Of a stretch of 64,000 nt of DNA, positions 22,433 through 29,113 are shown piece by piece. The notes under the pieces were generated by a model. The model did not search any database. It saw nothing but the letters and a program-made list of their open reading frames with translations, and was not told where the DNA came from. The position numbers and the translations under genes are program-made. Each line of letters opens with the position of its first letter. Within the stretch, counting starts at the first letter, position 1. Source of the DNA: Pedobacter sp. SYSU D00535 (GTDB lineage: Bacteria > Bacteroidota > Bacteroidia > Sphingobacteriales > Sphingobacteriaceae); assembly GCF_017355855.1 (NCBI RefSeq), contig NZ_JAFEWD010000004.1, positions 186,001-250,000 of the forward strand, written 5' to 3'.

Positions 22433-23836
22433 CTACGGTAAAGATTCCAATTTCTCAGGCAGCTCGCCCGAGAGCCAAAGCACCTTCAACTGTGCCTTTT
22501 TGATTTTGGCCTCGGTTGCCAGGATCTTCTCATTGAGTTCAAGTAGTTTACTTTCTCTCGAATTTACCAGGAACAGTGAGCTTTCTCCCAGGCGAAAACG
22601 CATTTCTTCTCCCTTCAGCAATTGCTCATTAGCCGTATAGGACTGCCTTAAGATTTGTAGTTGATTTTGAAGGTTGGTCAGCTCAGCAATATTTTGTCGC
22701 GCCTTATTTTCAAGCTCATTCCTTGCCAGTGTCTGCTCCAATTGCGTATTCTGAATTTTGATTTTGGCCTCAGCTAACTCGCCTCTGGCGGTTGAAAGCG
22801 TCAGAGGAAAGGCAAACTGCAATCCAATCTTATTATTATTGTTCCAGTAATCTGCATTCAGATTTCGTAGCGGCGTTCTTCCCTTGTTCAAGAGGCCCAG
22901 CTGTAAATTTAGTTCAGGTCTTAAGCTTTCAGCTTTAAGTCTTCTTTCTATCGCCAGGTCACGTAATTTAAATTCATAACTCAGGAGCTTGGGATTATTA
23001 GTGATGTCTGTATCCGCTGTAAGAGGAAGAACGAGCGTGTTTTGAGGCCTTATAGATAGTTTTTCCGGGTCGACCGCTGTGTTGTTTTCCAACCATAAGA
23101 AGGTGCTAAGCTCGTACAAGGCGTTTTGTAATTCGAGGCTCGCTTCCTGTAGCTGCAATTCGCGCTGCTGCAAAACCGTAAGGGCTTCAATAGTGTCAAT
23201 AGCCGGACGATCACCGCCTCTGAAACCTCTTTTTACCGCCTCAAAACGCACCTTTGCCAGCTCCAGTGTACCCTCGTAGATTTTAAAGATGCGGTAATTG
23301 TTCTGCCAGTTGATGTAGCTTTCCCCAGCTTGCATATACAAGTCGTTCAAAATAGCACGTTGTTCGTTTTCGCTCGCTTCTGCAAATATCCGGGCCTGGC
23401 GTAGAGAGGCTCGTCGTCGGTCCATCAAGAGTCCCTTACCCAGCGGAATGCTCACGCCGGCGTAGCTGAGTCCTTCTTTCGGTACTTTGTTCTGCGGGTT
23501 GATGTAAGCACCCTCAGCTTCAGTATAATTCGCTTTCAATTCAAGCCCAAACCAGAGAGGTAGCTTCACCTCAGGCGTTGTAAAGGTGTAGTACTCTGTA
23601 CCGTCGAACAGTTTTCTATCGTAATCCAGACTTAGTTTTGGATCAAAGTTGCCAAGGGCCTGCAACTTTCTCGCCCTGGCAAGACGTTCCAGTAGTTGGG
23701 CTTGCTGACTGACCGGATGGTTTTTGCGTATGATGGCAATAAAACCTTCCCAGCTAAGTGTATCAGAAGTTACCTGGGCATTTGAACTGCCGGCCAGCAG
23801 AATAAACAAGAGACTTAGCAGAACACTATTTCTCAT
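22433..23836 (-). CDS. TolC-family outer-membrane efflux protein
   Basis: A 467-residue outer-membrane factor: signal peptide (RNSVLLSLLFILLAGSSNAQ), then two long helical repeats with alternating short beta regions (SLELQNALYELSTFLW, LARNELENKARQNIAEL). It would form the outer-membrane channel of the tripartite exporter encoded by the two preceding genes. I chose the ATG at 23836; an in-frame GTG at 23860 would extend the overlap with the adaptor gene. Translation is probably coupled. Confidence 0.9.
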   Translation of the reverse strand: MRNSVLLSLLFILLAGSSNAQVTSDTLSWEGFIAIIRKNHPVSQQAQLLERLARARKLQALGNFDPKLSLDYDRKLFDGTEYYTFTTPEVKLPLWFGLELKANYTEAEGAYINPQNKVPKEGLSYAGVSIPLGKGLLMDRRRASLRQARIFAEASENEQRAILNDLYMQAGESYINWQNNYRIFKIYEGTLELAKVRFEAVKRGFRGGDRPAIDTIEALTVLQQRELQLQEASLELQNALYELSTFLWLENNTAVDPEKLSIRPQNTLVLPLTADTDITNNPKLLSYEFKLRDLAIERRLKAESLRPELNLQLGLLNKGRTPLRNLNADYWNNNNKIGLQFAFPLTLSTARGELAEAKIKIQNTQLEQTLARNELENKARQNIAELTNLQNQLQILRQSYTANEQLLKGEEMRFRLGESSLFLVNSRESKLLELNEKILATEAKIKKAQLKVLWLSGELPEKLESLP

Positions 23837-25172
23837 TCTTCTCTTTTTTTTCGGTTTCACTTGGACCCTTATAATATTCAGGAGGGAAGCCGTTCAGTTG
23901 TCGCCATAACTCATAAATAATTGGAACGTCTTTTAACAGTGCGATTCCCTGAGTTCCGCCGCCGTACCGTAGCTGTTGCGGCCATGGCTTTTCCCCATCG
24001 GGAACCACCCAAATTCGGAATTTACCGTTGGGGTTGATGGAAGGATCCACCGTTGCAATTTTTCCTCCGAAAGTTCCATAAGAAGCCTGGGGCCACCCGG
24101 AAAACACAATTGCGGGAAAACCATCAAACTGCAATCGAACCCGCTGGCCGGGTTTAATAAGCGGCATGTCAACGGGGGAGATAAACATTTCTACTGCAGG
24201 CTCGAACTGCGTTGGTACAATCTGCATTAGCTGCTCCCCGTCCTTCACTACTTCTCCGATCCCGGATTTAACCGTGCGGAGTACCTGCCCCGACTGCGGA
24301 GCGGTGATCACATAAAAGCCCCGACGTTGTTTGTAATTGGTGTACTGGTTGCGAAGTTTAGCCACTTCACTTTCGGTTGTCGACACCTGCGACAAGGCGG
24401 AAAATCGTTCTCCTGTTGTTTTGGAAATTTTTTCAGCGTATTCCTGCTCCGTGGCTGATAAATCTAAACGGATATTTATCAACTCGTTTTTGCTACTGTA
24501 GAATTTGTTTTCTGCACTGATTTTCTTGGCTTGCGCATCCTGAAAGTACTGCTGACGTTGCTCGAGTTCTGTGAGCGACTTTAATCCTGCCTCATACAAT
24601 TCCTTCTGGCGATCTAGCTGCTCAGTGGCAATTCTTAACTGATTTCTTGCAGCAATAAAGCTGATGCTATCCGATTGCACCTGAAGCCTGTATTGGCGAT
24701 ACTTGTTCTGCAACTGCTGAATCTTCAGTTTCATAGCGAGGAGCAGCGCCTGCTGTTGCTGTTCGGTGGTATTGGCTTTCTGTCTGTAAAAATCAATCGA
24801 CGCACTTTTTGCCCTGATCTGTTCGTCTACCCTGTCAAGTAGAGAGGAATCCAGATATTCTTCTTTCACCTCTGCTAACTGCAGCAGCGTATCGCCCTTT
24901 TTTACGACTTGACCATCCTGAATATGCCATTTTACAATTCGCCCCGCAATAACGCTGTTAATCTGCTGCGGACGTTGGTTGGGTTGTAGCGTAGACACAA
25001 TTCCCGGCGATTGGATGTTTTGCGTCCAAGGTAATAGAAGGATAATCGCGAGGATGCAAAGAGCTACGAGTAAATATTTTCTCCATTTCCTAGAAGGCTC
25101 ATTGCTTATAACTTTATTGAAGGAGTCGAACTCTTTCAACTTATCCGTTTGTGTTTTGCTGTCTAAAAACAT
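23826..25172 (-). CDS. HlyD-family periplasmic adaptor protein
   Basis: A 448-residue adaptor with one membrane helix (about 35-52, LLVALCILAIILLLPW), biotinyl-lipoyl half domains (VAGRIVKWHIQDGQVVKKGD near 75-95, ITAPQSGQVL near 290) and a long coiled-coil hairpin in between (about 105-275, rich in Gln and Glu). It links an inner-membrane exporter to TolC. It begins 2 bases after the ABC gene stop. Confidence 0.92.
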   Translation of the reverse strand: MFLDSKTQTDKLKEFDSFNKVISNEPSRKWRKYLLVALCILAIILLLPWTQNIQSPGIVSTLQPNQRPQQINSVIAGRIVKWHIQDGQVVKKGDTLLQLAEVKEEYLDSSLLDRVDEQIRAKSASIDFYRQKANTTEQQQQALLLAMKLKIQQLQNKYRQYRLQVQSDSISFIAARNQLRIATEQLDRQKELYEAGLKSLTELEQRQQYFQDAQAKKISAENKFYSSKNELINIRLDLSATEQEYAEKISKTTGERFSALSQVSTTESEVAKLRNQYTNYKQRRGFYVITAPQSGQVLRTVKSGIGEVVKDGEQLMQIVPTQFEPAVEMFISPVDMPLIKPGQRVRLQFDGFPAIVFSGWPQASYGTFGGKIATVDPSINPNGKFRIWVVPDGEKPWPQQLRYGGGTQGIALLKDVPIIYELWRQLNGFPPEYYKGPSETEKKEKNEK

Positions 25173-25174
25173 CT

Positions 25175-26851
25175 TTAGCTATTAGTTACAGAACCATCTT
25201 TCATTCTAATTACTCTGTCGCATTTACTAGCAAAAACCGCATCGTTGCTAATTGCCACCACTGTACAAGGATTTTTTTCGGAAGTGAGGAAGTCTATAAT
25301 TTTATTTTTTGATTCTGCCTCAAGTCCCATCCATCCGTCTTCTAAAAGCAGTAACGATGGTTTCATGAATAAGCATCGTGCTAGTAGAATCTTTTGTGTG
25401 GTATTGTATGAGAGCTTTTTCCCTTGCGGATCCAGCACAATGCCTAGTCCCTGCTGTTGCATATTGATAAACTCGGTGAGCCCTACCAAATCACAAACTT
25501 TATTCAGCTCGCCTAAGTCGGGGTTGTTTTTGCCCACCGTGATATTTTCTAGCAAAGTTGCTCCAAAGAGCTCTTCTTCCGTCAGGTACATGGCCACATT
25601 TTTATGAAGAACCTGAGGTTTTAGGCTCTTCAGCGGAACTCCGTTGTAAAGGATGTTACCGGTGAAGTTTTGCAGGGTGCCGCTTAGCAGTGTGAGCAGT
25701 GTCGATTTTCCTGAACCTTCAGATCCGGTGATGCACACTTTTTCCCCGGATTTGATGTCAAGGTCGAGATTTCTAATTATCGGATTTGCTTTATCGTATC
25801 CAAAAGTAACATTGGTGAGCTTTACAGCGATACCAGGAGTATGCGACCAATTGTCTTCGTTGATCAAGCCTTCTTCAGAGTCCTGTGGCTTTTCGAGTAC
25901 CTTATTGATTTTTTCCAGCGAGGTGAGTACATCATACAAGACCTCAAGACTAACAATTAACTTCTCAACGGAGTTAATAATGGTAATAATGATAATTTCT
26001 GCCGCTATAAACTGGCCGAGGTTAATTTGCTGATTTATAAATAGCAGCGATCCGATGATCAGCATTCCTGCGGTAATGAGGACTTTGAAGGCAATAACGA
26101 TGCGGTATTGAAAAACCAGAACTGAAAAATGCTCATCTCTGGAGTGTAGATAGCCGTTTACCAGTTTGTCGGTCTTTTTCAGGTGTAGGTCGTTATGCTG
26201 GTAAAACTTAAAAGTCTTAATACTTCTGGAGATTTCCTCCAGCCAATGTGCCACATCGTATTTATAGTCCGATTCTCTGATGCTTGTCCTTAATCCCTTC
26301 GGACTTGTCACGTAAAAGATCATGATCACAAGTACGGCCAGTAGAAATCCGAATGCAATAAAAATGGAGTGATAGAAACTAAGTAATATCAGCCCAAACA
26401 AGACCTGGATACTGGCTGCAGGAAAATCAAGTAAAAGTTTTGATAAGCCTTTTTGGAGACTGGCGGTGTCAAAAAAACGGTTTACAAGCTCCGGCAAGTA
26501 ATACTTGTCGATGCTTAATAAGTTGAGCCGCGGGATTCGATATGCGTAGGCAAAAGTTAGCCGGGTGAAGATTCGCTGTTGGATGCGTTCACTGGCACGC
26601 ATCTGTGCTATTTGAAGGATCCCGTTAAGTAAAACTCCAATCACTACCAGAACAATCAAAACAATGAGCGAAGTGCTGACAGTTCCTCCAAATACAAGGT
26701 TAATGATGGCTTGGATGCCGAGAGGTAGGGACAGTAGAATTATCCCGCTTACTACAGCATAGATGTAAACACTTGTTATTTCTTTTCGTTCCAAATTTAT
26801 TAATTGGAAGAGCTTTCTAGTTGCTTCCCTTATTGAATACTGGTTTGCCAC
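25175..26851 (-). CDS. ABC exporter with a diverged ATPase domain
   Basis: A 558-residue half-transporter: six-helix membrane domain (about 20-310) and an ATPase domain (about 340-558). Walker A is intact (GSEGSGKST, about 375). The other motifs have drifted: LSGGQ is LSYNT (about 480), Walker B has Glu-Asp (LLLLEDG, about 500) instead of Asp-Glu, the Q-loop Gln appears as Thr (LTEEELF), and the H-loop reads AISND without His. It is the first gene of an exporter operon with HlyD and TolC partners. Start is GTG at 26851; no internal Met would leave the N-terminus intact. No peptidase C39 domain is present. Substrate unknown. Confidence 0.9.
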   Translation of the reverse strand: MANQYSIREATRKLFQLINLERKEITSVYIYAVVSGIILLSLPLGIQAIINLVFGGTVSTSLIVLIVLVVIGVLLNGILQIAQMRASERIQQRIFTRLTFAYAYRIPRLNLLSIDKYYLPELVNRFFDTASLQKGLSKLLLDFPAASIQVLFGLILLSFYHSIFIAFGFLLAVLVIMIFYVTSPKGLRTSIRESDYKYDVAHWLEEISRSIKTFKFYQHNDLHLKKTDKLVNGYLHSRDEHFSVLVFQYRIVIAFKVLITAGMLIIGSLLFINQQINLGQFIAAEIIIITIINSVEKLIVSLEVLYDVLTSLEKINKVLEKPQDSEEGLINEDNWSHTPGIAVKLTNVTFGYDKANPIIRNLDLDIKSGEKVCITGSEGSGKSTLLTLLSGTLQNFTGNILYNGVPLKSLKPQVLHKNVAMYLTEEELFGATLLENITVGKNNPDLGELNKVCDLVGLTEFINMQQQGLGIVLDPQGKKLSYNTTQKILLARCLFMKPSLLLLEDGWMGLEAESKNKIIDFLTSEKNPCTVVAISNDAVFASKCDRVIRMKDGSVTNS

Positions 26852-27094: not shown

Positions 27095-29113
27095 TTGGAA
27101 AAATTTAATATCAGTGATGAATTGAGACGCCTGCAGGACCTGGAAGAAGGCCTCGGTCAAGGTCTTGTGGGTACATACCTTCTTGATTATAGTAGCCGGA
27201 TTGTATATGCAGACAAAATTCTATGTACGCTTTATGGTCTTGATTACGATGAGAACGGTATTCCCCTGGATGATTTTTTGAAGAACATCAAGGAAGAAGA
27301 TTTGGCTAAAGCGAATGAGAAGCGGAAAGCGCAGATTGACAAAAACCTACCCTACGAAATTGAATATCGGGTAAAGACGCATGATAACTCTACCCGATGG
27401 GTATTGGCGAGAGCGAGATCCAGAAAGGTAGATGACCGTATCTATTATGAGGGACTCGTGATTGATATCACCAAGGGCAAAGAAGCGGACATTGCCCTCA
27501 GCACGCAGAATAAGCTTATCAAAACTATCACAGATAATGCAACCTCTGCCTTATTTATGATGAACGCTGAAGGTTACTGTACTTTCATGAACAAAGCTGC
27601 GGAACAGATGTTCGGATACACATTTGAAGAGATAAGTTCCCGCCAGTTGCATTATATGATTCACCATCATTACCCTGATGGGCGGGAATATCCAATGAAA
27701 GATTGTCCACTCGATCGTGCGCTACCGCAAAATTTTGAGATTCGGGCTCATGAAGATCTTTTTTTTAGGAAAGACGGGACTCCTTTCCCGGTGTCTTGCG
27801 CCGCAAGTCCTATTTTCGAAAACGGCGTTCCTGTTGCTACGGTAGTTGAAGTGATGGATATCACGCCGCAAAAACACGCGGAAGAGATGCTGCGCAGAAA
27901 TGCGGAACGGTTGGAAGTTTTAAATTCAATCGGTATTTCGATCTCAGAGAGCCTCGACCTGAACGGTATTTTGCAAAAGGTAACTGATGCGACTACCAAG
28001 TTAACGGGAGCTAATTTTGGAGCGTTCTTTTATACCAGTACAAATCCTGAGGGCGAGAGTTTTCTGCTCTATACCTTATCGGGAGCCCCTAAAGAGGCTT
28101 TTGAATCTTTTGGTGCTCCTCGCAATACCGCTGTTTTTCACCCAACCTTCAGCGGCGAAGGAGTAGTAAGAGTGGACGATATAACGAAAGACCCTCGTTA
28201 TGGAAAAAATCCTCCGCATCACGGTATGCCTAAAGGGCATCTTCCTGTAGTGAGTTATTTAGCAGTGCCTGTTACCTCAAAGTCAGGAACGGTGATCGGT
28301 GGACTATTCTTTGGGCATAAAAAAGCCGGTGTTTTTACCGAGGAGCACGAGAAGATAGTACTGGGAGTTGCATCTCAGGCAGCAGTAGCTCTTGATAATG
28401 CTAAGCTTTATGAGGAAGTCCGGGTCCTGAATGCGAAAAAAGATGAGTTTATTGGGCTGGCTAGTCACGAGTTAAAAACACCCTTAACAAGTATAAGCGG
28501 CTATCTTCAAATCCTGTCTCGAAAGGAGGCAGAAAGCGGAAGCAACGAGTTTATCAATAAAACAATGAAGCAGGTAAATCGGCTCTCTTCATTGGTTTCT
28601 GATTTACTGGATGTATCTAAAATCCAAGCCGGTAAACTGGAGTTGAATTATGAGCAATTTCCGCTGGAAGACGTGTTGGAAGAAGCAATAGAAATTGTAG
28701 CGCATTCATCAGGCTCTCATAAAATTCTCTATGAACAGAAGCAGGAGGTGATAGTAGTTGCTGACCGGCAACGGATCGAACAGGTTGTTATTAATTTTCT
28801 TACTAATGCCATAAAGTATTCTCCAAAAGCAACCGAGGTGCGGGTAAGTACGGAAGTGGTAGAAGGGCAGGTGAAGGTTAGGGTTAAAGACTTCGGGATT
28901 GGAATCGCGGAAGGGCAGGAGGAAAAAATATTCTCCAGGTTTTATCGCGTAGAAGGGTTGAACCCCGGCATGTCTGGCCTTGGAATCGGCCTTTACATCT
29001 CGGCGGAGATCGTTAAGAGGCACCAGGGGGACATTGGTGTGCTGAGCAAGGTAGGAGAAGGAAGCACATTTTGGTTTAGCATTCCGCTGAAACAGGGCTT
29101 TAGCTTAAAGTAA
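27095..29113 (+). CDS. PAS-PAS-GAF sensor histidine kinase (orphan)
   Basis: A 672-residue soluble kinase with no membrane helix: PAS domain (about 15-130), second PAS (about 140-262, with MNAEGYCTFMNKAAEQMFGY), GAF (about 275-425, GEGVVRVDDITKD, LAVPVTS), HisKA with phospho-acceptor H458 (GLASHELKTP) and HATPase_c with N box NFLTNAIKYS, G1 DFGIGI and G2 GLGIGLYI. The start codon is TTG, chosen because AAGGAG lies 7 bases before it and no in-frame ATG precedes the first PAS domain. No response regulator is next to it. Confidence 0.93.
   Translation: MEKFNISDELRRLQDLEEGLGQGLVGTYLLDYSSRIVYADKILCTLYGLDYDENGIPLDDFLKNIKEEDLAKANEKRKAQIDKNLPYEIEYRVKTHDNSTRWVLARARSRKVDDRIYYEGLVIDITKGKEADIALSTQNKLIKTITDNATSALFMMNAEGYCTFMNKAAEQMFGYTFEEISSRQLHYMIHHHYPDGREYPMKDCPLDRALPQNFEIRAHEDLFFRKDGTPFPVSCAASPIFENGVPVATVVEVMDITPQKHAEEMLRRNAERLEVLNSIGISISESLDLNGILQKVTDATTKLTGANFGAFFYTSTNPEGESFLLYTLSGAPKEAFESFGAPRNTAVFHPTFSGEGVVRVDDITKDPRYGKNPPHHGMPKGHLPVVSYLAVPVTSKSGTVIGGLFFGHKKAGVFTEEHEKIVLGVASQAAVALDNAKLYEEVRVLNAKKDEFIGLASHELKTPLTSISGYLQILSRKEAESGSNEFINKTMKQVNRLSSLVSDLLDVSKIQAGKLELNYEQFPLEDVLEEAIEIVAHSSGSHKILYEQKQEVIVVADRQRIEQVVINFLTNAIKYSPKATEVRVSTEVVEGQVKVRVKDFGIGIAEGQEEKIFSRFYRVEGLNPGMSGLGIGLYISAEIVKRHQGDIGVLSKVGEGSTFWFSIPLKQGFSLK

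Follow-up and report, generated by a model that had tools for sequence, protein, structure and literature searches.

Putative tripartite exporters of Bacteroidota built on an ABC-type membrane domain with a degenerate or deleted ATPase domain

Results

An exporter operon with a degenerate ATPase domain

The window analyzed here is a 64,000-nucleotide stretch of the genome of Pedobacter sp. SYSU D00535. A gene on its reverse strand (25,175–26,851) uses a GTG start codon and encodes a type IV ABC exporter half-transporter of 558 amino acids with a degenerate ATPase, assigned from the open reading frame, Pfam, an AlphaFold2 model and Foldseek. Residues 1–322 (25,886–26,851, reverse strand) comprise a transmembrane domain of six TM helices, delimited from the model and from conservation, and residues 339–558 (25,178–25,837, reverse strand) comprise the degenerate nucleotide-binding domain, delimited from Pfam, alignment and conservation. 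The protein matches the Pfam models ABC_membrane (5.3e-15) and ABC_tran (3.6e-19), and its AlphaFold2 model, built on a shallow alignment (20–30 sequences for each of the structure models), has a mean pLDDT of 79.6 and a pTM of 0.51. In a Foldseek search, this model superimposes on the peptide exporter PCAT1 (8voz) with a TM-score of 0.85. Pfam, the model and Foldseek thus agree on a six-TM domain followed by an ABC ATPase domain, the arrangement that defines the type IV exporter fold.

The motifs of the ATPase domain were read by alignment to five canonical exporters encoded in the same genome, all of which carry canonical or near-canonical motifs. Walker A (GSEGSGKST, residues 376–384, including K382; 25,700–25,726, reverse strand) is intact. 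In the Q-loop (YLTEEELF; 25,565–25,588, reverse strand), Thr424 occupies the position expected for Gln, and the signature motif is LSYNT (residues 480–484; 25,400–25,414, reverse strand) instead of LSGGQ, with the Ser retained. Walker B (LLLLED; 25,337–25,354, reverse strand) ends in Glu504-Asp505 instead of Asp-Glu, and the H-loop (AISND; 25,241–25,255, reverse strand) contains Asn536 instead of His. Of the motifs that mark an active exporter (Walker A, the Walker B Asp, the catalytic Glu, LSGGQ, the Q-loop Gln and the H-loop His), only Walker A is present; the A-loop aromatic residue is also retained. The divergence of four ATPase motifs beside a normal Walker A, recorded in the first-pass annotation, is therefore upheld by the alignment, which reveals no canonical residues displaced to other positions. 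By fold the protein is a type IV ABC exporter, and by its catalytic motifs it would not be an active one.

The two downstream genes encode the expected partners of such an exporter. An HlyD-family periplasmic adaptor of 448 amino acids (23,826–25,172, reverse strand; Pfam HlyD_3, 6.7e-16), which also matches the EmrA model (1.9e-17), starts 3 bases past the stop codon of the ABC gene and has a counterpart at nearly all loci of the family. Its end is overlapped by the gene for a TolC-family outer membrane channel of 475 amino acids (22,433–23,860, reverse strand; Pfam OEP, 2.8e-34), likewise a conserved partner. The locus thus has the gene set that characterizes type I secretion, in which genes for an HlyD adaptor and a TolC channel share the exporter's operon, and open reading frames and Pfam bear out the earlier remark that the operon encodes no further ATPase. 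A search of the genome for a second copy with a working ATPase identified one family member only, the other long matches being at most 24% identical. Models of defense systems gave only generic ABC ATPase cross-matches.

The window operon is adjoined by a divergent sensor kinase gene (27,095–29,113); at other operons, a TetR-family regulator is seen instead, adjoining 43 of 117 operons, both degenerate and fused ones. The TetR neighbors suggest inducible efflux of a small, toxic molecule. A beta-carbonic anhydrase-like gene lies beside nine exporter operons of distant lineages, on either side (position +3 at L066, L074, L079 and L082; −1 at L093, L145, L154 and L239; −2 at L150). One genome of the window's family (G095) carries three degenerate copies (L100, L101 and L102), and every copy has a separate pair of HlyD and TolC genes.

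Loss of catalytic residues across the Bacteroidia

Three genome samples were searched for homologues, at the level of the order (151 genomes), the class (345) and the phylum (296). In the class sample, the family is found in 175 of 345 Bacteroidia genomes and in 108 of 178 genera. Motifs were read in 89 homologues that retain at least part of the ATPase domain, comprising 16 deep relatives from other Bacteroidota classes and 73 members of the Bacteroidia type. None of the 73 combines LSGGQ, Asp-Glu and His, and comparable losses occur in all of them; the motif loss of the window protein is thus far from chance, and close homologues do not keep the canonical set. The deep relatives mostly retain Asp-Glu (15 of 16) and His (12 of 16); their signature is altered, and the Q-loop Gln is missing. 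The 15 that could be placed on a tree form a separate, fully supported branch. With the canonical combination absent from all 73 Bacteroidia-type members, and with Asp-Glu and His kept by most deep relatives, loss of Walker B and H-loop function can be placed near the root of the Bacteroidia family. The ancestral state was probably not cleanly active either, given that the members with Asp-Glu and His have unusual signatures and an ATPase that evolves somewhat faster.

The Walker A Lys is retained in 82 of the 89 members, and the signature Ser and the A-loop aromatic residue are often retained across the family. At Walker B, Glu occupies the first position in 45 of 89 members and Asp the second in 52 of 89; E-G, E-N, N-D, D-N and K-D pairs are found in others. 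The substitutions of the window protein are thus not fixed among Bacteroidota homologues, in which these positions vary.

An additional N-terminal domain of about 125–250 amino acids, with no Pfam match, is found in the long members of the family (L155, L157, L158, L160–L171, L173, L174, L207, L210, L216, L217, L235–L242, L246 and L251–L253). Both deep branches have this extension, which the window's group lacks. Assignment of this N-terminal region, taken as a domain of ∼150 amino acids, as C39-like was rejected, its profile having no convincing PDB match. Degenerate members also occur on plasmids of Sphingomonadales, in Novosphingobium, Sphingobium, Sphingomonas and Croceicoccus (L255, L268, L269 and L270), some of them labeled 'ABC transporter transmembrane domain-containing protein' by NCBI. 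These copies adjoin HlyD and TolC genes, and all four that were read are without the Walker A Lys, Walker B and the His. Transfer between phyla is possible in light of these plasmid copies.

Deletion of the ATPase domain

The family can be arranged in five stages of ATPase loss. Members from other classes keep Asp-Glu and His (stage i); the window protein has lost both and kept Walker A (stage ii); and in stage iii, L156 and L165 are without Walker A and L204–L206 are without most of the domain, with HlyD and TolC still kept. In stage iv, the ATPase domain is absent, leaving a membrane-only protein of ∼334 amino acids, and in stage v, the membrane domain is fused directly to HlyD in a protein of about 750 amino acids.

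In the order-level search (Sphingobacteriaceae), 46 of 73 positive genomes match by the membrane domain only, as assessed for 20 by reading the locus and for 26 by the extent of the match and the length of the frame alone. At each of the 20 loci read, the membrane-only gene is followed by HlyD and then TolC genes, with no ATPase domain in the operon, and it overlaps or lies close to the HlyD gene. Other families contribute two further membrane-only loci (L137 and L139), and fusions of membrane domain and HlyD are found at eight loci in six families. Phylogenies built on the membrane domain place membrane-only and fused forms in two separate clades, and a single clade is rejected by the AU test on a 37-row tree (p = 0.003); the ATPase domain has therefore been deleted at least twice. 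A third membrane-only origin, at L138, was considered and rejected because the frame runs into the contig end.

Just upstream of the membrane-only gene, 13 loci (L066, L067, L069–L075, L077–L079 and L082) carry a gene for a small protein of ∼110–138 amino acids, in which one hydrophobic stretch is followed by an acidic/lysine-rich stretch such as IEKSSEENKDKEEESFDK.

Divergent selection on the ATPase and membrane domains

Eight genomes carry both a family member and a canonical exporter, and in these, identity to the copy in the window genome was compared for each domain. The canonical exporter is 61–69% identical in its membrane part and 77–83% in its ATPase; the family member is 57–77% identical in its membrane part and only 38–52% in its ATPase. 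In seven of the eight genomes, the membrane domain of the family is more conserved than that of the canonical exporter. Among degenerate members, the ATPase is the better conserved domain in 1% of 2556 pairs, as compared with 31% of 105 pairs of other-class relatives. Since a weaker reversal is already evident in these relatives, relaxation of the ATPase may have begun before the catalytic residues were lost.

Segments of the membrane domain were scored against the domain average at similar divergence. In exporters of the type IV fold, coupling loop 2 forms a docking site for the partner subunit's ATPase. Relative to the average, this loop scores −3/−6 points in other classes, −10/−12 in degenerate members, −26 in membrane-only members and −38/−50 in fused members. 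The membrane part of TM6 scores +4/+7, +12/+13, +9/+18 and +21/+28 points in the same four groups. Such a pattern would be expected if ATPase docking had lost its use and the transport path had not. The cytoplasmic helix of residues 121–138, which follows coupling loop 1, is conserved even in membrane-only members.

A conserved acidic residue in TM6

Glu285 (25,997–25,999, reverse strand), identified by homologue comparison, lies seven residues into TM6, near its outer end. Of 118 homologues, 117 have an acidic residue at this position, as do the four sphingomonad copies; the residue is hydrophobic in the genome's own five canonical exporters and Asn in ComA and PCAT1. Acquisition of Glu285 at the moment of ATPase loss was rejected, as the residue already occurs in relatives whose Asp-Glu and His are intact. 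Its occurrence in these relatives means that Glu285 may have allowed the loss of the ATPase rather than replaced it.

Precedents for proton-driven transport include LmrA and MsbA, for which the work on proton coupling is contested and comes from one research lineage. In LmrA, Glu314 in TM6 is required for proton-coupled transport (PMC6155054); we claim no equivalence with Glu285. A pH gradient powers drug transport by MsbA that lacks its ATPase domain (PMC4979069). SbmA, which shares the fold, is naturally ATPase-less and proton driven; for SbmA/BacA, descent from an ABC transporter by loss of the ATPase has been proposed (PMC13316013). By analogy with SbmA, the family is probably powered by an ion gradient.

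Discussion

Comparison with known transporters

By profile and structure, the nearest characterized proteins are ComA (3.6e-10), PCAT1 and HlyB/D (8dck, Z 27.1). Fold and partners are common to the window system and to the type I secretion/PCAT exporters (HlyB-HlyD-TolC, LssB, PCAT1 and ComA); those exporters, however, keep a working ATPase, whereas the family is without the catalytic residues and many members are without the domain. The window protein scores far below every NCBIfam cut-off listed for exporter permease/ATPases (184 of 853 bits for NHLM, 171 of 693 for LssB and 161 of 726 for HlyB). The degenerate subunits of TmrAB, TM287/288 and TAP have Asp at the position of the catalytic Glu, as does the window protein, but their partner subunits keep one working site; the window operon has no partner gene, and a homodimer would have both sites degenerate.

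Membrane-only relatives resemble SbmA/BacA (SLiPT) in having an ABC-exporter-type membrane domain without an ATPase domain. Unlike the family, SbmA/BacA is an importer without HlyD or TolC partners. Kinship with SbmA beyond the fold was rejected at the level of sequence: PF05992 (SbmA_BacA) does not match the membrane-only forms, in which ABC_membrane alone is found, and SbmA is absent from the PDB profile matches of the family to an E value of 10. The structural matches listed by Foldseek and VIA-align do not include SbmA. MsbA-MD and LmrA-MD likewise consist of a membrane domain without an ATPase; these are laboratory constructs, whereas the truncation described here is natural and conserved. 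EmrAB-TolC is similar to the proposed system in combining an ion-driven inner membrane pump with an HlyD-like adaptor and TolC, but its inner membrane part is of the MFS and not of the ABC fold. On the evidence of sequence, the window system apparently works like type I secretion or tripartite efflux, without ATP turnover. A search of the open-access literature found no earlier description of the family.

A model for transport and its alternatives

Catalytic residues have been lost across a class, the ATPase domain has been deleted at least twice with the operon kept, the ATPase and its docking loop have relaxed, and the membrane core has been conserved. The account that we favor, and consider somewhat probable, is that of a tripartite exporter that no longer hydrolyzes ATP and whose membrane domain transports alone, most likely driven by an ion gradient. 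We infer all three of its elements: no ATP turnover, ion-gradient energy and the direction of export. In this model, Bacteroidota-centered tripartite exporters would consist of an ABC-type membrane domain, an HlyD adaptor and a TolC channel, the ATPase having stopped hydrolyzing ATP. Transport would be the work of the membrane domain alone, which would dimerize and dock on HlyD and TolC, with an ion gradient as the most likely drive and the membrane-embedded Glu285 in TM6 as a candidate coupling residue. The leftover ATPase domain of the window copy probably still binds ATP through Walker A and may serve as a structural or regulatory lid, one that is gone in many relatives. Counting against the model are the occurrence of Glu285 in relatives with an intact Asp-Glu and His, an ancestral state that was probably not cleanly active and the contested standing of the work on LmrA and MsbA; in addition, retention of the Walker A Lys in 82 of 89 members makes ATP binding seem important to most of them.

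That retention argues for a reading to which we give nearly even chances, in which the cycle is driven or gated by ATP that is bound but not turned over: the domain would dimerize on ATP and release it unhydrolyzed, the nucleotide acting as a switch and not as fuel, and the membrane-only and fused forms would represent a later step at which the switch was lost. The A-loop aromatic residue and signature Ser, often retained, and a model in which the domain retains an ABC ATPase fold are consistent with it, although the members that have lost Walker A or most of the domain nonetheless keep HlyD and TolC. Such a switch is compatible with ion-gradient power, so it does not conflict with the favored account. 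Of the three interpretations offered in the first-pass annotation, it is this one, ATP binding without turnover, that fits the window copy, which keeps Walker A, the A-loop aromatic residue and the signature Ser and has lost the hydrolysis residues and the His; a changed catalytic site and an active partner elsewhere fare poorly. A changed but working site, with Glu at the position of the Walker B Asp, Asp at that of the catalytic Glu and hydrolysis without the H-loop His, draws on the frequency of the Glu-Asp order in the class, but the variety of other Walker B pairs argues that no new site is being kept; moreover, relatives lose Walker A or truncate the domain, which evolves faster than the membrane part and has been deleted twice. 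We regard this reading as very unlikely.

Pairing with a canonical half-transporter, or recruitment of an ATPase domain, in either case from another locus of the genome, is quite unlikely in our judgment. Heterodimeric exporters with one degenerate site, such as TmrAB and TM287/288, are common, SbmA relatives with ATPase genes in a separate operon exist (PMC13316013), and helix 121–138 is still conserved in membrane-only members. The genomes tested also contain 9–25 other ABC ATPases each at the search threshold. However, a single half-transporter is found in every operon read, and a profile of the family's ATPase domain, searched in 22 genomes, found no family-type domain outside the operon in ATPase-less genomes: the family's own domain scores 1e-88 to 1e-91 in two full-length genomes, all else, every ATPase-less genome included, peaks near 1e-51, and the matches listed are almost all in open frames of ∼580–810 amino acids, the size of fused canonical exporters. 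Coupling loop 2, on which docking would depend, also relaxes sharply once the domain is gone. Finally, the ABC part could be a remnant that anchors HlyD-TolC, or a pseudogene on its way out, as the fast evolution of the ATPase domain might suggest. The fast evolution is confined to that domain, and an open reading frame, a membrane domain that surpasses the canonical exporter in conservation in seven of eight genomes, TM6 conservation above the domain average and an operon kept across half of a class make this unlikely.

Implications

Ion-driven transport by the membrane domain of an ABC exporter alone is a contested idea, the evidence for which comes from truncated laboratory proteins and from the importer SbmA. 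Here, a natural exporter has had its ATPase deleted at least two times with adaptor and outer membrane channel kept, and intermediate stages survive in living species; these natural stages make the contested question directly testable. For the family as a whole, we hold it an even proposition that about half of the Bacteroidia carry ion-gradient-driven tripartite pumps built on an ABC membrane domain, which arose through death of the ATPase and its repeated loss, with direct fusion of the membrane domain to the adaptor among the outcomes. If true, these would constitute a further type of energized inner membrane component for tripartite pumps. The label 'ABC transporter ATP-binding protein' in Bacteroidota also covers proteins that probably use no ATP.
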